Shown in pieces: positions 880 to 12,702 of a stretch of 14,549 bases of DNA. Both the position numbers and the translations under genes were made by a program. A model generated the notes under the pieces. That model saw nothing but the letters and a program-made list of their open reading frames with translations. It ran no database searches and was not told where the DNA came from. Within the stretch, counting starts at the first letter, position 1; every line of letters starts with the position of its first letter. This stretch comes from a bacterium (GTDB taxonomy: Bacteria > UBP15 > UBA6099 > DSWB01), in contig JAGUYV010000350.1 in NCBI GenBank assembly GCA_020061125.1, positions 1 through 14,549 on the forward strand. The letters are read 5' to 3'.

Positions 880-2469
880 ATGGACATCACGACGCACGCA
901 TCCGTTTTGCGCAGCCTGGCCGCGGGCGCGCAGGCCAACGCCTACGGCGGCGTCAGCCCGTTCGTGATCCATTTCATAACATCAGGCATTCTCGCCATGA
1001 TCGCCGTGTGCGCGGCCGTGTTTCTGGTGCTCAAGCTGTGGGCGCGCATACGGCGCAGGCCGTGGCTGCGAAGAGGCGCATACGCGGTTCTCGCCTTGAG
1101 CCTGATCCCCATCCGCCCATTCGCCGCTGCCCTGTGGCTGCAATACAAATGGCCCGTTATCATAATTTGCGCGTTGCTTACCGGAACTCATTTGCGGCTG
1201 AAGCGCGCGGGCGGCCCGGGCCTGTTTCAGCGGAAGTATCTGCTGTGGGCCATTGTCCTGTTTCCCGTGATCGTGTCGTTCACGATTGTGCGCCAGTACG
1301 CATTCGAGGCGGACAACTGCGGCCGCCTGGCGATGGACCGGCGCATTACGCCTTTGTTCTCGCTGTGCCGGGACGGGTGGCGCGAGCGCATCGTGCGCGC
1401 CGAACCGCACGGCGCGCCGCCCGCGCCGGAAATCGCACAGGACCCGCGCACCATCTTCCCCTCCGCGGACGGGCGATCCGTATATTGCGCCCTGGGTTAT
1501 CAGGACCTCGAATACAAGCAGCCGCTCATGAAAATCCGGCGGCGCGACAACAAAATCCAGAAGGTGTATTACCTGTACTCGCCGTTCCGGGGCGAGTGCG
1601 CGCCGGGACAGGGGCGGTGCTTCGTGGTGTCGCCCATGAAGCGCGGCCTGCTCGAAATTGACGATGAAAAAAATGAAATTTCGCGCGAGGTGCGGCTGCG
1701 CAATTATGTGCCCCTGTTCCTGGGCCTGGACACCGCGCGCAAACAGGTCCTCATGACGCCCATGTACAACCGCCGCCTGGTGGACACCTCCGAGGATGTT
1801 GTGAACGAGACCGTGGCGCGGCGCACCCTTACGCCGCCGCACAGGGCCGTGCGCGCCGCGGAGCGCGAAAGCGGCGGGCTGATCGGTCTGCCGCACGCGC
1901 GCGTCTGGGTTTACGACTGGGGTGAGGGCCGCGCCTGGGGCCTGGAGCAGACCGGGGACTTCCCCATGTCCCACGGGCTGACCCATTACAGCGAAGAACT
2001 CGAAACCCTGTACGCGGTCAACGGCATCATCTCGTGGAATGTGTTCGCGGGCCGGCGCCCGCACCTGCAGATGAAAGGCGCGTCCATCGGCCTGTTCAAT
2101 TTTCTCATGGGCCTGGGCGTGGGCAACGGCATCGCCGCGGACGCCGAAGGCGCGCAATTCTTCACCGGCATGCCCATGCACGGCGCGGTGTATGTGTTCG
2201 ACGCGCGTGAAAACCGCTACAAGCGGCGCATCAACCTGGAGATCGGCGTGCGAGACCTGGCCTTCGACCCGGAGCGGCGCGCCCTGTTCGCCGCGGGATA
2301 CCTCACTGGCCATGTGTTCGTGATCAGCGCGGACACATACAAAGTCGTGGACAAGATCTTCGTGGGCCGCAAGGTGCGGCACATCCACTGGGACGCGCGC
2401 GCCCGCCGCCTGCTCGTGACCTCGGCCAACGGCTGCCTGGAAGTGGATCCGTTCCTGTCCGGGCAATAA
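880..2469 (+). CDS. Membrane-anchored beta-propeller-like protein, function unknown
   Basis: 529 residues from ATG 880. The frame stays open upstream to a TTG at 808, but that TTG coincides with the likely -35, and ATG 880 has a purine-rich GGGGGCAGGG just before it, so 880 is preferred. The first 140 residues hold about four hydrophobic segments (roughly 28-53, 66-86, 90-104 and 120-139). The remainder, from about residue 165, looks like a beta-propeller of the YncE/SMP-30 kind: repeated short strands with motifs such as VRDLAFDPERRALFAAGY, GHVFVISADTYKVVDKI, and VRHIHWDARARRLLVTS near the C terminus. I do not recognise a named family. It lies 54 bases upstream of the HEAT-repeat gene on the same strand, so it may belong to the glycosyltransferase locus as a sensor or scaffold; that is inference from position only. 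Confidence 0.75.
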   Translation: MDITTHASVLRSLAAGAQANAYGGVSPFVIHFITSGILAMIAVCAAVFLVLKLWARIRRRPWLRRGAYAVLALSLIPIRPFAAALWLQYKWPVIIICALLTGTHLRLKRAGGPGLFQRKYLLWAIVLFPVIVSFTIVRQYAFEADNCGRLAMDRRITPLFSLCRDGWRERIVRAEPHGAPPAPEIAQDPRTIFPSADGRSVYCALGYQDLEYKQPLMKIRRRDNKIQKVYYLYSPFRGECAPGQGRCFVVSPMKRGLLEIDDEKNEISREVRLRNYVPLFLGLDTARKQVLMTPMYNRRLVDTSEDVVNETVARRTLTPPHRAVRAAERESGGLIGLPHARVWVYDWGEGRAWGLEQTGDFPMSHGLTHYSEELETLYAVNGIISWNVFAGRRPHLQMKGASIGLFNFLMGLGVGNGIAADAEGAQFFTGMPMHGAVYVFDARENRYKRRINLEIGVRDLAFDPERRALFAAGYLTGHVFVISADTYKVVDKIFVGRKVRHIHWDARARRLLVTSANGCLEVDPFLSGQ

Positions 2470-2511
2470 TTGGCCTTTTTCCCGCGCCTGAATCATAGGC
2501 CGTGGATTGTG

Positions 2512-2517
2512 TAGAAT
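2512..2517 (+). promoter_or_regulatory. Candidate -10 box abutting the HEAT-repeat gene start
   Basis: TAGAAT (5 of 6 to consensus) ends 6 bases before ATG 2524. Transcription starting about 7 bases downstream would begin at or next to the start codon, giving a leaderless message. No Shine-Dalgarno is present in the bases before the ATG. The -35 is weak (CTGAAT at 2488-2493, 18-base spacer). Confidence 0.4.
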
Positions 2518-2523
2518 AAACCC

Positions 2524-3627
2524 ATGGAATTTGTGGCCACAAACGCGCAGCTTTTGTTGCAGAAGCCAGCGGGTCTGTTCATCTTGGCAGTGCTGGCGCT
2601 TGACCTTATGTTCTGTGTGCTCGCCGTGGCCTTGATCATCCTGTTCCGCATCAAACTGCTGTTCCGTATCAGAGAACGCCAGGGTCCGGTAAAAGAATTT
2701 CAGGAACGGCTTGAGGTATTCGCCGCAGGGGACGACAGTGCGCTGGATGAGGCCCGGGAACTTCTCTCGCGGCTGTCCCCCGGCGTCCGGGCCTCGCTTT
2801 TTCTTTCATACTCGCGTTCAATCTCGGGGCGGATGCGGGAGCAGATTGTGAGCCTGTTCTCCACCCCGAGGCAGGAGGTGCAGATCCTGCGCATGTCGCG
2901 GTCGCGTCTTTGGTCACGCCGCCTGCACGCCGTGCGCCTGCTTGAATTGGTTCCCGTTGAAAAGGCCGTGCCGTTGCTCGTGGGATTTCTGCGGGATCCC
3001 ACGCCGCTGGTGCGTTTGCACGCGCTGCAGATGGCGCCGGTTTTTCCGCATGACGAGGTTGTCGCCGCAGTGTTTGGAATGCTTGAGGGGCCGCTGGCGC
3101 TGACCGGCTTCGCCGTCAAGGATGCGCTGGTGCGCATGGGGCCTTCGGTGTGCGACAGGCTTCACAAACTTCTCGATGCGCGCAGCAGCGAGCCTGCGCT
3201 GATTCTCGCCATAGAAGTGGCGGAAAGCGTGCGCAATCCCGGATGCGTGCCGCGTCTTATGGACATGCTGCGCGAGGGGCCTCCTGAAGCCGCGGCCGCA
3301 GCCGCCCGCGCGCTGGGCGGATTCCCCTCCCCGGAAACGCGCGACACCCTGCGCGCGGCCCTGACCTCGCCCCACGAGCCGGTGCGCTCCATGGCCGCCC
3401 ACGCACTCGGGCGCATCATGGATCCCGCCGTCGTGCCCGATCTCGTGACCGCTTTTCCAGCCCCGTCGTTCAATGTCCGCTACCATTGTGCGGCGGCGCT
3501 CAAGAAACTGGGCGAGCCGGGCGCCAAAGCTCTGGCCCAGTGCCAGAAGCACGAAGACCCCTTTGTGCGCGATATCGCCTGGTATGTGGGAAATATGCCG
3601 GATTTCGCCATGACCTGGATCCGATGA
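2524..3627 (+). CDS. Membrane-anchored HEAT-repeat protein
   Basis: 367 residues. One strong hydrophobic segment spans about residues 17-43 (LFILAVLALDLMFCVLAVAL), followed by a basic stretch, so the bulk is probably cytoplasmic. From about residue 125 the protein is a series of paired helices of about 30 residues with HEAT-type signatures: VRLHALQMAPVF, VRSMAAHALGRI with the following VVPDLVTAF, and VRYHCAAALKKLG near the end. HEAT repeats make alpha-solenoid surfaces for protein contacts; no catalytic motif is visible. The stop overlaps the start of the glycosyltransferase (ATGA, bases 3624-3627), so the two are almost certainly translationally coupled and made together. I infer a role as accessory or regulatory partner of that membrane synthase. 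There is no ribosome site; a -10-like box sits immediately upstream of the start. Confidence 0.88.
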   Translation: MEFVATNAQLLLQKPAGLFILAVLALDLMFCVLAVALIILFRIKLLFRIRERQGPVKEFQERLEVFAAGDDSALDEARELLSRLSPGVRASLFLSYSRSISGRMREQIVSLFSTPRQEVQILRMSRSRLWSRRLHAVRLLELVPVEKAVPLLVGFLRDPTPLVRLHALQMAPVFPHDEVVAAVFGMLEGPLALTGFAVKDALVRMGPSVCDRLHKLLDARSSEPALILAIEVAESVRNPGCVPRLMDMLREGPPEAAAAAARALGGFPSPETRDTLRAALTSPHEPVRSMAAHALGRIMDPAVVPDLVTAFPAPSFNVRYHCAAALKKLGEPGAKALAQCQKHEDPFVRDIAWYVGNMPDFAMTWIR

Positions 3628-5039
3628 ACTGGAAACTGTTCGCCTTCTCCGTGCTTTATCATTTCGACTGGGCCGTGTTTTACTATTTCATTTTCGTCAA
3701 CGGGTTTTACACCATGCTCCTGATTCTTTCCATACCGGAGCTATTCCGCAACTATGCGCTGTCCCGCGATGAGAATCTCAAGCGCCTGTTCGAGTCCGAC
3801 GCCTCGCCCGCCATCACCCTGCTTGCTCCCGCATACAACGAGGAAGCCACGATCGTCGAGAGTTTGAGCGCCATGCTGACCATCGAGTATCCGGATCTGC
3901 AGGTCGTGGTGGTGAACGACGGCAGCGGGGATCGCACCATGGATGTATTGAAAACCGCTTTCAGCCTTTTCGAAATGCCGCCGGTGTTCCGGCGGCTTCT
4001 GCCTACGGCCGAAGTCAGGGCGCTTTACCGCTCGCACCGGTTTTCGGCCCTGACCGTAGTGGACAAGGAGAACGGCGGCAAAGCGGACGCGCTGAACGCG
4101 GCCCTCAATGTTGCGGGCACGCCCCTGGTGTGCGCCATGGACGCGGATACGCTCATCGAGCCGGACGCACTGCTGCGCATGGTCAGGCCGTTTCTGATGA
4201 AGGAAAACACCGTGGCCGCGGGAGGCACCATCCGCATCGCTAACGATTGCGTTGTGGACAAAGCGCGGGTTGTGAAAGTGCGCCCTCCGCGCCGGTTCCT
4301 GCCCGCGGTGCAGGTGGTGGAATATTTGCGCGCGTTTTTGTTCGGCCGCCTCGGCATAAACAGGCTCGGCGGCAATCTCGTGATTTCCGGCGCTTTCGGA
4401 TTGTTCTCGCGCAAGGCCGTGCTTGATGCCGGCGGATGGCTGCGCGGCACCGTGGGCGAGGACATGGAGCTGGTCGTGCGCATGCACCGCATCCTGTGCG
4501 AAAAGCGCACGCCCTACCTCGTGGATTTCATCCCAGACCCCGTGGCGTGGACCGAAGCCCCGGAAACCCTCAAGGTGCTCTCCAGGCAGCGCGAGCGCTG
4601 GCACCGGGGCCTCACAGACACCCTGGCGCGGCACAGGATTATGTTCTGCAACCCCCGCTACGGCCCCATCGGCATGATCGTGTTTCCGTATTTCGTGATT
4701 GTGGAATGGCTCGCCCCGGTGGTGGAGCTGCTGGGTTATGCGGGCCTGGCGATAGGGCTGTACTTCGGCATTGTGGACTGGTTTTTCGCGGCGCTGTTTT
4801 TTGCCGCCGCCTACGGCCTGGGCGTGGTGCTGTCGCTTTTCAGCATCGTTCTGGAAGAAGCGTTTTACCAGAGGTTCCCGCGAACGAGGCACATCCTGTA
4901 CCTTGTGGCGATTGCGCTCCTGGAAAATCTGGGATACCGTCAGCTCACCGTGCTGTGGCGGGTGAAGGGCATCGTGCGCTATCTGCGGGGGGAAACCTCC
5001 TGGGGGCGCATGGACCGTCGCGGTTTTAAATCTTCCTGA
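3624..5039 (+). CDS. Processive family-2 glycosyltransferase (PgaC/BcsA/YaiP-like)
   Basis: 471 residues starting at ATG 3624, which overlaps the preceding stop; the frame is open further upstream but that part lies inside the HEAT gene. Membrane helices flank a cytoplasmic GT2 domain: about residues 12-38 before it and about four after residue 350. The nucleotide-sugar and catalytic motifs are all visible: LLAPAYNEE (66-74), VVNDGSGD (96-103), DAD (173-175), GED (278-280) and the processivity motif QRERW (322-326). These match membrane polysaccharide synthases that make beta-linked polymers such as poly-N-acetylglucosamine, cellulose or hyaluronan; the actual sugar cannot be told from sequence. 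A C-terminal PilZ domain is absent. The partnership with a HEAT protein and a nearby YaiO-type barrel suggests a secreted polymer. In E. coli, yaiP (GT2) and yaiO are likewise neighbours. Confidence 0.92.
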   Translation: MNWKLFAFSVLYHFDWAVFYYFIFVNGFYTMLLILSIPELFRNYALSRDENLKRLFESDASPAITLLAPAYNEEATIVESLSAMLTIEYPDLQVVVVNDGSGDRTMDVLKTAFSLFEMPPVFRRLLPTAEVRALYRSHRFSALTVVDKENGGKADALNAALNVAGTPLVCAMDADTLIEPDALLRMVRPFLMKENTVAAGGTIRIANDCVVDKARVVKVRPPRRFLPAVQVVEYLRAFLFGRLGINRLGGNLVISGAFGLFSRKAVLDAGGWLRGTVGEDMELVVRMHRILCEKRTPYLVDFIPDPVAWTEAPETLKVLSRQRERWHRGLTDTLARHRIMFCNPRYGPIGMIVFPYFVIVEWLAPVVELLGYAGLAIGLYFGIVDWFFAALFFAAAYGLGVVLSLFSIVLEEAFYQRFPRTRHILYLVAIALLENLGYRQLTVLWRVKGIVRYLRGETSWGRMDRRGFKSS

Positions 5040-5052
5040 TTCGGGATCATCC

Positions 5053-5081
5053 TTCACGGCAGACTTCACAACCAATAAAAT
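5053..5081 (+). promoter_or_regulatory. Candidate promoter upstream of the response regulator
   Basis: TTCACG at 5053-5058 and TAAAAT at 5076-5081 are separated by 17 bases, in the 85-base gap between the glycosyltransferase stop and the regulator start. It would allow the regulator to be transcribed separately from the synthase. The region is notably AT-rich against the rest of the window. Confidence 0.4.
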
Positions 5082-5124
5082 ATAAATGCAGCTTGGCGGT
5101 TTTCGCGGCGCCGGGGGGAGAACT

Positions 5125-6291
5125 GTGAACCAGGCGAAACATATCCTTGTCATGGACCGGAACCCGGCCGTCGCGGGCCGGCTCGGCGAATTGTGCCGCA
5201 GCAGGGGGTGGGCCATCACTGCCGCGGCATCGGCCGAACAGGGAATCAAGGCCATGCTGCCCGATTTGCCGGATGTGGCGCTGATCCGCGATCAACTGCC
5301 CGGCATGCCGGGGTATGAGGTCTGCCGCCGCATCCGCTCCAATCCTCTGTGCGCCGGCGCATCGCTGGTTTTTCTCTCGGGCGTATTCCCCAGAATAGGG
5401 TTTCTGAAAAAGTTGATTGTGGACATGAGCGTGGACCGCGTTGTTACAGCAGGCGATCTGGAAAGCGTGTGCCGGCATGTTCAGGCTTTGACGGATTCGC
5501 ATGCGGAAGCGCGGGATTGGTCCGAAATGGCCGCACGCGAGGAATACCTGCTGTTCTTGTTTCGAAAGATGCGCCGCATCGAGGATTGCATCAGGAGTCT
5601 TTCCGCAAATCCGCTGGACATGGCAGCGCTCAAGGAACTGGTTATTGATGTGCGCACCATCCGTGACACCGCGGATGCCAACGGTTATCCCCGCGCCGCG
5701 GCCGAGGCGCGCGCCTGGGCGGAGGCCCTTAATGAACTTCTGCAGGTTGTCGTGGAAGGACACACGGACGCGTTGATGCGGTCACAGCGCGAGTCCTTCC
5801 CCGGCAGATTGCGCCGGATCTTCGATCAATGCCAGCAGGAACGGGGCCGCCAGCATCCCGCGTTTCTGTCGCACGCGGCCAGGCGGCAGCAGTTGCGGGG
5901 CGCAGATCAGGCAACTGCGCGACCGCCTCAAATCCTTGTGGTTGAAGACGATCCCGCCATTCAGAAAATGGTGGCTTTCGCCCTTCGAAACCGCGGCATG
6001 GAGTGTGAAATACTGTCCGACGGCATCGCCGCGCGCGAACGCCTGCTCAACGGTTTGCCCGCGCCCAGGGTGGTGCTGCTGGACATCAACCTGCCGGGCG
6101 TGGACGGGCTTACGATTCTTGAGGAATTGAACCGGTCAGGGAAAATTCGAGCCATGCGCGTGATCGTAATTTCCGGTCACACGCGCGAGGATTTCATAGT
6201 GCGCGCCTTCGATTCCGGTGCATACGATTATGTGACCAAGCCCTTCAGCATTCCCGTGCTGGTGCGCCGCGTGCGCCGCGCTCTGGATTGA
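5125..6291 (+). CDS. Response regulator: degenerate receiver - Hpt-like - intact receiver
   Basis: 388 residues from GTG 5125, preceded by GGGGGGAG at 5113-5120. An in-frame ATG at 5086 is rejected because it lies in the promoter region and adds residues outside the receiver fold. The N-terminal receiver (about 5-125) keeps D11 and S85, but the phospho-acceptor aspartate is replaced by R55 (IRDQLPGMPG) and the conserved lysine by A109. The middle (about 130-215) is helical and aligns to the Hpt signature HTLKGSA...G as RTIRDTADANG, with R177 in place of histidine. The C-terminal receiver (about 268-388) is intact: E274-D275-D276, acceptor D320 (LLDINLPG), S350, and K372 (VTKPF). There is no DNA-binding or enzymatic output domain, so it probably acts by protein contact. 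Its place after the synthase suggests it tunes that system; no histidine kinase is in the window. Confidence 0.88.
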   Translation: MNQAKHILVMDRNPAVAGRLGELCRSRGWAITAAASAEQGIKAMLPDLPDVALIRDQLPGMPGYEVCRRIRSNPLCAGASLVFLSGVFPRIGFLKKLIVDMSVDRVVTAGDLESVCRHVQALTDSHAEARDWSEMAAREEYLLFLFRKMRRIEDCIRSLSANPLDMAALKELVIDVRTIRDTADANGYPRAAAEARAWAEALNELLQVVVEGHTDALMRSQRESFPGRLRRIFDQCQQERGRQHPAFLSHAARRQQLRGADQATARPPQILVVEDDPAIQKMVAFALRNRGMECEILSDGIAARERLLNGLPAPRVVLLDINLPGVDGLTILEELNRSGKIRAMRVIVISGHTREDFIVRAFDSGAYDYVTKPFSIPVLVRRVRRALD

Positions 6292-6316
6292 CTTCACATC
6301 TGCTTCGCCGGAAAAT

Positions 6317-7462
6317 TCAATACAGGTGTTTCAGCGCCATGCCGTAGGAAAATCGTGTCCGGGAAACGCCCGGCGCGGTGTCTTCTTCCTCGTATCCGAA
6401 CAACAGGCGCAGATATGTGTTGCGGGCGATGCGGCGTTGCCACTGCAGCTCCAGGCGGGACGAGTCGAGCCGCGCCGCATCCTGTGCCGTGAGGGTTTCC
6501 GCAGCCGCGGATCCTGCGCCGATTAGCAATTGCACATATTCCCTGTGCCCGGTTTCGCGTCTGATTGTGAACACGCCGGACAGGGCGTCTCCTGCGCTGT
6601 CCGGATTGTAGAACGCACGGAGAGCGGCCCGGTAATTGTCAAGGTATTTCCCAACGGACGCCGTGTGGATGCGCGTGTTGTCCGGGGAAAAATTCAGCAT
6701 CTTGGTTCCTGCGGAGAACTCCCATCCTCCTGGTGTGCCGTGAAAGAGTTCGCCATTAATGTACGATGTTGGGAACAGTGCGTGTCCGGAGACCCCTGCA
6801 CCCAGAAACAGATAAGTGCGCCGGGACAGCGCGGGGTATCCCTCGATTTCAAACTGCGTGGCGTTCTTGTCGAACCGGCGCGCCCGGTTCACGCGCACAA
6901 GCAGGCTGCCTCCGCCGTAACGCCGTTCCCATTCCAGAGCGCCCAGATGCCAGCCCGAGAGCGGCGTGTTCGTGAAAGCGTCCGCCGTGTAACCCAGAGT
7001 GAGGCTTTCTTCCGGCTCGCCGGAATGCGGGTCAAGGGACGCGCGGACGCGCTCTCGCGCCTTGCGATAATCCTCATAATCCGGCGCCAGGGCCAGGCCC
7101 TGTTCGGCAAGCTCAAGAGCGCGGCCGGGGTTTCCGGACCACAGAGCTGTGTCTATGAGCGCGCTGCGTGCGTCGTGATATTCGGGGGCCGCCGCAAGCA
7201 CCTGCTCCAGTTGGATTCGCGCCGCCTCGTACTGTCCGTCCCATGCAAGCACGCGGCCCAGGAGAACGCGCGCGTCGTGGCACTGGGAGCATGTCTCAAG
7301 GATTTCGCGGCACATGCGCGCCGCTTCATCACGGCGATTGTCGAAAGCGAGTTGCCTCGCCTGCTCGAACAGTGCGTCCGTATCCTGCGCGCGCGCCGTG
7401 CCGGGCGCGCACGGGGCCAGTGCAAGCAAAAATAAAAATATGAGAACGGCAGTTCGTTTCAT
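6317..7462 (-). CDS. TPR plus YaiO-family outer-membrane beta-barrel protein
   Basis: 381 residues from ATG 7462; a GTG at 7468 in the same frame would add two residues. A Sec signal peptide covers about residues 1-25 (MKRTAVLIFLFLLALAPCAPG, cleaved after ARA). Residues about 28-145 form three TPR-like helical pairs (EYHDARSALIDTALWSGNPG, ALELAEQGLALAPDYEDYRKA). The rest, from about 150, is a string of amphipathic strands rich in aromatic and small residues (LGYTADAFTN, GWHLGALEWERRYGGGSLLV) that ends in MALKHLY, an aromatic C terminus usual for outer-membrane barrels. This layout matches the YaiO family. In polysaccharide systems such as Pga, a TPR plus barrel protein forms the exit route through the outer membrane; that role is inferred here. 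It is convergent with the regulator (25-base gap), so it is coordinated by position rather than by a shared transcript. Confidence 0.85.
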   Translation of the reverse strand: MKRTAVLIFLFLLALAPCAPGTARAQDTDALFEQARQLAFDNRRDEAARMCREILETCSQCHDARVLLGRVLAWDGQYEAARIQLEQVLAAAPEYHDARSALIDTALWSGNPGRALELAEQGLALAPDYEDYRKARERVRASLDPHSGEPEESLTLGYTADAFTNTPLSGWHLGALEWERRYGGGSLLVRVNRARRFDKNATQFEIEGYPALSRRTYLFLGAGVSGHALFPTSYINGELFHGTPGGWEFSAGTKMLNFSPDNTRIHTASVGKYLDNYRAALRAFYNPDSAGDALSGVFTIRRETGHREYVQLLIGAGSAAAETLTAQDAARLDSSRLELQWQRRIARNTYLRLLFGYEEEDTAPGVSRTRFSYGMALKHLY

Positions 7463-11817: not shown

Positions 11818-12702
11818 TCATTGCCTTTGGCGTTTCCTTCGCCGTGCGGCCTTGAGTTCGGCAAGGCGCGGTTTCACGAATTTCATGGCCTGCACGCCCA
11901 GCCAGATCAGCGCATTCACCGGCGCGGGCATTTTGGCGTAAAAGTGCTTTTTGTGGAATGTCCACATGGTGTGGTAGAACTGGTACGCGGCCGGGCCGGG
12001 GCTGGTGTCCGCGCACACCCCCTTGGCGTGGACGATGCGCGCGGCCGGGTTGTACAGCACCTTCCATCCCGCCTGTTTGGCGCGCAGGCAGAAATCAATG
12101 TCCTCGGCGTACAGAAAATAATCCTCGTCGAAGCGGCCGATTTGCTCGGTGACCGCGCGGCGGATCATCATGAACGAGCCGGACACCGCGTCCACCTCGG
12201 CCTCTTTGTCCGGGTCCAGGAAGGTGAGGTTGTAACGAGCGAAGAGCTTGCTTTTGGGAAACATGAGGCTTAAGCCGCTCAAGCGGCAGAAGGCGACCCA
12301 GGGGGTGGGGAACCCGCGGCGGCAGGCGAGCTGGAGGCGTCCGTCGGTCTCGCACACGCGGCCCCCGGCCACGCCCGCGTCCGGGCGCGCGGCCATGAAT
12401 CGCTCCATCTCGCGCAGGGTATCGGGCTGCACGATGACATCCGGGTTCAGCAGCAGAAACAGATCGCCGTGCGCCGCGTCCATGCCCTGGTTCACCGCCG
12501 CGGAGAAGCCGCGGTTGTCAGCGTTGCGGATCAGCACGGGCCGCGCCGCGTGCCGGGAGATCGGGTCCAGGCTGTTGTCCGCGGACGCGTTGTCCACCAC
12601 GATGACCTCGTCGTCCGGCCCCAGTGCGGGCGCGAGCGAATCCATCATGCGCAGGAGCGCGGGTCCGGCGTTGTAGTTGACGACGATCACGGTCACGGCC
12701 AT
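11818..12702 (-). CDS. Family-2 glycosyltransferase, rhamnosyltransferase-like
   Basis: 294 residues; soluble, without membrane helices. The GT-A fold starts VTVIVVNYNAG (3-13), with VVDNASADNS (35-44), NRGFSAAVNQG (63-73) and the DxD-equivalent LLNPDV (84-89). Later motifs are VSGSFMMIRR, FDEDYFLYAEDIDFCLRAKQAGW (acidic acceptor site EDID) and the RIVHAKG segment; the middle LMFPKSKLFARYNL resembles WbbL-type rhamnosyltransferases. It probably adds a single sugar to a lipid-linked O-antigen, capsule or cell-wall glycan on the cytoplasmic face; donor and acceptor are not deducible. The C terminus is a basic tail (AARRRKRQRQ) that could touch the membrane. No ribosome site precedes the ATG; a TATACT lies 12 bases upstream. 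It is not adjacent to other glycan genes, so its pathway is unclear. Confidence 0.92.
   Translation of the reverse strand: MAVTVIVVNYNAGPALLRMMDSLAPALGPDDEVIVVDNASADNSLDPISRHAARPVLIRNADNRGFSAAVNQGMDAAHGDLFLLLNPDVIVQPDTLREMERFMAARPDAGVAGGRVCETDGRLQLACRRGFPTPWVAFCRLSGLSLMFPKSKLFARYNLTFLDPDKEAEVDAVSGSFMMIRRAVTEQIGRFDEDYFLYAEDIDFCLRAKQAGWKVLYNPAARIVHAKGVCADTSPGPAAYQFYHTMWTFHKKHFYAKMPAPVNALIWLGVQAMKFVKPRLAELKAARRRKRQRQ

Follow-up and report, generated by a model that had tools for sequence, protein, structure and literature searches.

The known synthase-dependent polysaccharide secretion systems are recognised by the partners of the synthase, such as PilZ domains, BcsB, PgaB, PgaD and the Alg proteins. 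In the Pga/Hms/Ica systems (PgaABCD/HmsHFRS and IcaA), which produce poly-beta-1,6-GlcNAc, the small protein PgaD is a partner of the synthase, and the exit in diderms is a TPR-containing outer-membrane barrel protein. The Bcs systems likewise have a TPR-barrel exit, and their polymer is decorated by BcsG-type proteins. In the yaiS-yaiP-yaiX-yaiO cluster of E. coli, a GT2 glycosyltransferase is encoded near a YaiO barrel, together with a putative deacetylase, YaiS, and acyltransferase, YaiX. Among experimentally known systems, E. coli NfrBA-YbcH, the system of the N4 receptor glycan, comes closest to the locus analysed here: in it, a GT2 and a TPR barrel act under a local cyclase (PMC8669469). 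It shares with our locus an inner-membrane GT2 with DxD, ED and QxxRW motifs, an outer-membrane TPR barrel, overlapping genes and a local signalling protein. Unlike the system described below, NfrB has a c-di-GMP domain (MshEN) of its own, and the paper on NfrBA-YbcH mentions neither HEAT nor YaiO and describes no receiver partner (PMC8669469). Rubrivivax EmbRS and Xanthomonas xag were also considered as prior descriptions and set aside, the available parts of these accounts naming no HEAT partner. A module consisting of a HEAT-repeat protein and a GT2 synthase (HEAT-GT2) is apparently undescribed: no description of it is found in the open-licence literature, and prior work may exist elsewhere.

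The DNA analysed here (the window) is a stretch of 14,549 nt, which is the entire contig of an incomplete bacterial assembly (4.1 Mb, 513 contigs, 79% complete). It encodes, in this order, a DUF362 protein truncated by the contig end, a propeller-like protein, a HEAT-repeat protein, a GT2 synthase, a three-domain regulator, a TPR-YaiO protein on the opposite strand, and LysS and GreA, the last two being assigned by eye. The features under study are listed in Table 1. A second GT2 gene, unrelated to the synthase and rhamnosyltransferase-like by eye, is located at 11818-12702 (−). The sequence-only reading of this DNA had identified the five genes from the propeller to YaiO, and its coordinates, motifs and 4-base overlap are borne out by Pfam and by the sequence. 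We consider it likely that the locus encodes a distinct kind of synthase-dependent exopolysaccharide system, made up of REC, HEAT and GT2 with a YaiO exit, in which HEAT is a cytoplasmic regulatory adaptor. Because such a system contains none of PilZ, BcsB, PgaB, PgaD and the Alg proteins, it is easily missed.

Table 1. Positions of the features of the candidate exopolysaccharide locus in the window
Feature	Position	Strand	Basis or remark
Membrane protein, propeller-like repeats at its C-terminus	880-2469	+	Pfam matches far under cut-off; 54 bases 5' of HEAT
HEAT-repeat protein	2524-3627	+	PF13646, 94 bits (cut-off 27.7)
ATGA overlap of HEAT stop and GT2 start	3624-3627	+	Sequence
Processive-type GT2 polysaccharide synthase	3624-5039	+	DAD, GED, QRERW; N- and C-terminal membrane helices
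Regulator: degenerate REC, degenerate Hpt, intact REC	5125-6291	+	Residue 1 is the codon at 5128
C-terminal receiver of the regulator, HEAT-GT2-associated lineage	5929-6285	+	KPFSIPVL signature
Signal peptide, TPR repeats and YaiO barrel	6317-7462	−	PF19413, 133.8 bits (cut-off 23.9); TIGR04390, 130.8 bits (cut-off 32)

The window differs from the Pga systems in that no PgaD-like gene lies beside the synthase, no deacetylase (PgaB/IcaB) is detected among the flanking gene products of the window by the Pfam scan, and the barrel is of the YaiO type, scoring 16 bits against the PgaA model with its cut-off of 367. It differs from the Bcs systems in being without BcsB and PilZ. In the E. coli yai cluster, the GT2 core of YaiP shows 29% identity to that of the window over 227 residues, but the cluster contains neither a HEAT nor a receiver gene. 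BLASTP gives no alignment between the YaiO proteins of the window and E. coli, though PF19413 matches both. The synthase gene of the window has no GGDEF, PilZ, deacetylase or hydrolase neighbour. The earlier remark that deacetylase, hydrolase and c-di-GMP domains are missing is therefore right for the window, but, as regards hydrolase and c-di-GMP domains, not for the family, because many relatives have a GGDEF regulator and a hydrolase-like neighbour.

The window GT2 contains the motifs PAYNE, VNDGS, DAD (residue 173), GED (residue 278) and QRERW (residue 322), the last being of the QxxRW type that is linked to processivity. Its predicted model (pLDDT 90.8) has a synthase fold with membrane helices, and Foldseek matches it to hyaluronan synthase (3.9e-14), cellulose synthase (2.9e-13) and also chitin synthase. 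These results assign it to the processive GT2 type, although a modelled fold of this kind would not by itself prove that a long polymer is made. The product might instead be a short surface glycan or glycolipid, with HEAT serving as an assembly factor. The family indeed stays well under the threshold of each curated NCBIfam synthase model that it touches: the nearest one, the PgaC_IcaA model (TIGR03937), gives 133.2 bits for the window GT2 and 127-146 bits for its relatives against a cut-off of 422.3, and the CelA model gives 53.4 bits for the window GT2 against 699.1. However, the nearest solved folds with membrane helices are those of processive synthases, QxxRW is present, and the barrel, glycosidase-like and sulfatase/LtaS-like partners found in relatives suit an extracellular polymer, so that a short glycan is an improbable product. 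No PilZ match is found in the window synthase by the Pfam scan.

To what extent HEAT belongs to the synthase is seen from 80 named relatives of the GT2, chosen by similarity. HEAT is encoded directly 5' of GT2 on the same strand, as it is in the window, in all 75 relatives with at least 1.1 kb of upstream sequence, and the exact 4-base overlap is present at 44 of the 78 measurable junctions. The ATGA overlap suggests that translation of HEAT and GT2 is likely to be coupled. Judged by record titles, the carriers belong to Gemmatimonadota, Nitrospira, Actinomycetota, Bacillota, Bacteroidota, Ignavibacteria, Spirochaetales, Acidobacteria, Aminicenantes, Chloroflexi and Alphaproteobacteria, and include one archaeal bin, about ten phyla in all. 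Because this set was picked by similarity, a broader sample of 386 genomes, in which most families are represented by a single genome, was also searched with a GT2 profile at E 1e-70. It yields 30 loci, among them the window and one same-order relative and possibly species of the named set, and HEAT lies beside GT2 in all of them except L168 (28 of the 29 loci other than the window itself). Thus, the pairing proposed earlier proves genuine, and HEAT and GT2 appear, from gene order, to form an almost obligate pair. The distance matrices of the two proteins are also correlated (r 0.89; permuted maximum 0.10), but this carries little weight, since shared descent would give the same result. Around the pair, a receiver is encoded in most of the 80 named loci, a YaiO barrel in 33, and a propeller in none. 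The outcome that the sequence-only reading had named as refuting its proposal, a pair standing by itself in most genomes, is thus borne out by half, for the propeller.

The HEAT protein modelled by AlphaFold2 with a 44-row alignment (mean pLDDT 93.8) consists of a long N-terminal helix (residues 15-67) followed by the HEAT solenoid. Over 44 orthologues, Lys and Arg residues number on average 0.5 ahead of the hydrophobic segment and 4.7 behind it, and by the positive-inside rule these averages place the solenoid in the cytoplasm. HEAT is thus predicted to have a single N-terminal transmembrane helix and a cytoplasmic solenoid, a position from which the catalytic domain of GT2 and a receiver could both be within its reach. 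This topology makes it unlikely that HEAT replaces a periplasmic partner of the BcsB type, one of the roles first suggested for it; its place is closer to that of PgaD, of which we propose it as a functional analogue. Two results on HEAT count against the proposed system: the HEAT sequence is weakly conserved, with zero invariant columns, and a fold search with its model retrieves only generic HEAT/armadillo solenoids.

The window regulator has Arg at the phospho-Asp position of its N-terminal receiver (R54) and Arg at the His position of its Hpt-like domain (R176), so that it is not a working REC-Hpt-REC phosphorelay, but its C-terminal receiver retains D319, Ser and Lys. The description 'pseudo-phosphorelay' given to it by the sequence-only reading therefore fits two of the three domains and fails for the third. 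In another genome of the same order (G005, contig C362, locus L136), one of the six other members of this order among the genomes examined, a GT2 closely related to that of the window (65% identity across the portion that is present) is followed by a homologous regulator, which shows 30% identity to the window regulator over its length and retains both Asp and His. Because the window has Arg at both sites and L136 keeps Asp and His, the window regulator is best read as a decayed phosphorelay with a surviving output receiver. The dead first receiver and Hpt domain nevertheless count against the proposed mechanism of control in the window. The regulators adjoining HEAT in relatives range from REC-Hpt-REC-GGDEF-REC down to a lone REC, and their terminal receiver keeps Asp, Thr/Ser and Lys in nearly all of them, L007 and L017 being the exceptions. 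In a tree of 187 receiver domains, the receivers nearest to HEAT cluster together across regulator architectures, with 11 label changes where none of 200 shuffles gives fewer than 46; the shuffles ignore the kinship of the sampled loci. The window C-terminal receiver falls among the HEAT-nearest terminal receivers of relatives.

Since many of these regulators contain GGDEF domains, the true signal at those loci could be c-di-GMP. If it were the general signal, the regulators would be diguanylate cyclases feeding the synthase locally, and the GGDEF-less regulator of the window would be a decayed form. Regulators of the type REC-GGDEF-REC do lie directly 5' of HEAT-GT2 in several phyla, with an intact GG(D/E)EF motif in L012, L013, L017, L054, L073 and L074, and a local pairing of cyclase and synthase is known, as DgcJ feeds NfrB (PMC8669469). 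However, the GGDEF motif is degenerate in many regulators (GGAEF, SGAEF, GGPDF, ADDTF) and absent where REC stands alone, whereas the terminal REC is intact in nearly all, and neither GT2 nor HEAT has a recognisable PilZ or other known c-di-GMP domain. These results make c-di-GMP unlikely as the general signal, although it is the chief alternative to the reading preferred here. The reading preferred here, control by the receiver through HEAT, might extend beyond the window: we suggest tentatively, and with somewhat less than even confidence, that a widespread class of synthases in diderms and monoderms is gated post-translationally by a phosphorylated receiver via an obligate HEAT adaptor, c-di-GMP being an optional input that has decayed in many lineages.

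The TPR-YaiO protein of the window scores far above the cut-offs of both YaiO family models (Table 1), and these matches make it the probable export pore. The gene was said to follow the regulator; it is adjacent to it, but lies on the opposite strand and converges on it, with 25 bases between the stops. Because of this orientation it is not in an operon with HEAT, GT2 and the regulator, a point against a single system. The convergent arrangement recurs in L012, L013 and L030. With a barrel-only search within 6.5 kb and the monoderm class assigned from record titles, YaiO is found at none of the 27 monoderm loci among the 80 and at 33 of the 53 others (Fisher p 7e-9, which is optimistic because related genomes are not independent). 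About 20 of these 53, some of them on short contigs, have no YaiO nearby, which also counts against the proposed system. Among 13 genomes carrying the GT2 family, 7 match PF19413, each with a single gene that lies no more than about 6.3 kb from the GT2; several of these genomes had been selected after the barrel was seen, so what counts here is that they contain no second YaiO gene. The copy in the window is the only YaiO gene found in its genome (79% complete). A sample of 98 genomes not chosen for barrels has 7 YaiO genes, distributed over 6 genomes. Four of these genes (that of the window, one from G024 and two from G068) have a GT2 of the family within about 3 kb, and the other three are in genomes without a GT2-family match. 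These results agree with the earlier proposal that YaiO is a companion of the synthase, in that it accompanies HEAT-GT2 in many diderms and lies near GT2 wherever both are present in the genomes tested. A protein of 284 residues encoded after the HEAT-GT2 pair on a same-order contig (L135:1437-2291 (−)) has a signal peptide and is barrel-like by eye; it was not counted as YaiO, because no Pfam family matched it.

The locus would then work as follows. On the cytoplasmic side, GT2 would polymerise a sugar nucleotide, and it would pass the chain across the membrane through a channel of its own. HEAT, held by its one-helix anchor, would bind the synthase with its cytoplasmic solenoid as a regulatory adaptor. 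A dedicated receiver, which in the window would be the intact C-terminal REC, would dock on HEAT or on the synthase in a phosphorylation-dependent manner and switch synthesis. In diderms, the chain would leave through the TPR-YaiO barrel. If so, the locus would be a candidate example of direct control of a synthase by a receiver domain, and a possible role is provided for the little-studied YaiO barrel. The observations behind this mechanism are the genes and their motifs, the conserved gene order, the receiver lineage, the association with YaiO and the synthase-like fold; synthesis and export of a polymer, contacts of HEAT with GT2 and with REC, and the direction of control are inferred from them.

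The propeller gene has no place in this mechanism. That all five genes, the propeller included, form one system in the lineage of the window was the original proposal, and the position of the propeller gene just 5' of HEAT on the same strand, with a promoter-like site ahead of it at 808-837 (a consensus match only), agrees with it. However, no propeller relative is found near any of the 80 named GT2 relatives or on the same-order contig L135, which carries the HEAT-GT2 pair. The evidence that the protein has a propeller is itself weak and confined to residues 417-523. Among the loci examined, propeller relatives are seen only in the genome of the window, where a copy with 57% identity is located on contig C65 amid unrelated genes. 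The paralogue family is lineage-specific and expanded in the order of the window, with 10 matches in G001; L004:713-2530 (−) is another member. The absence at the loci of relatives and the paralogue in an unrelated context exclude the propeller as a component of the system or a partner of the synthase, and we judge the gene beside HEAT to be a bystander. Thus, the five-gene proposal stands for HEAT-GT2, for YaiO in many diderms and for the C-terminal receiver; in the form that includes the propeller it is very improbable.

The HEAT-GT2 pair, almost never split across about ten phyla, is a testable module with exchangeable outer partners, namely the YaiO barrel in diderms, a glycosidase-like protein in monoderms and a fused sulfatase/LtaS-like domain in some. 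The glycosidase-like family, which has no Pfam entry, shows weak similarity to GH113/GHL10 and contains an invariant EFG-type motif (members L024:11435-13669 (+) and L054:273-3500 (+)); it is encoded near HEAT-GT2 at 18 loci, 15 of them monoderm. A search of the genome of the window and seven others, run without a positive control, does not find it. Single reading frames join GT2 to YaiO in two different genomes, L034:8750-12163 (+), where the barrel is detected by Pfam, and L147:397-3630 (+), where it is detected by our own profile and not listed by Pfam, and both have a signal-peptide-like stretch at the GT2/YaiO junction. In L021:8532-10262 (+), GT2 carries a C-terminal Hpt domain with an intact His, and the fusion gene lies in an operon with REC, REC, YaiO and HEAT. 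GT2 is fused to a PF00884 sulfatase/LtaS-like domain, recalling the BcsG-type decoration of Bcs polymers, in L161:1-3003 (−), and L164:1-2925 (−) is a similar reading frame by a resemblance not based on Pfam. Through these fusions the synthase appears to be connected with export, with phosphorelay and with modification of the polymer, but an error in the sequence of a draft contig can mimic a fusion. A sulfatase/LtaS-like domain is also fused to or adjoins HEAT-GT2 at L075:11438-13471 (+) and L081:6426-8459 (+). The Nitrospira reading frame L017:11384-12976 (+) has an extension of 530 residues after GT2, which matches no Pfam family; it has a signal-peptide-like start and, by eye, a DIEPY motif, and is perhaps another glycosidase.
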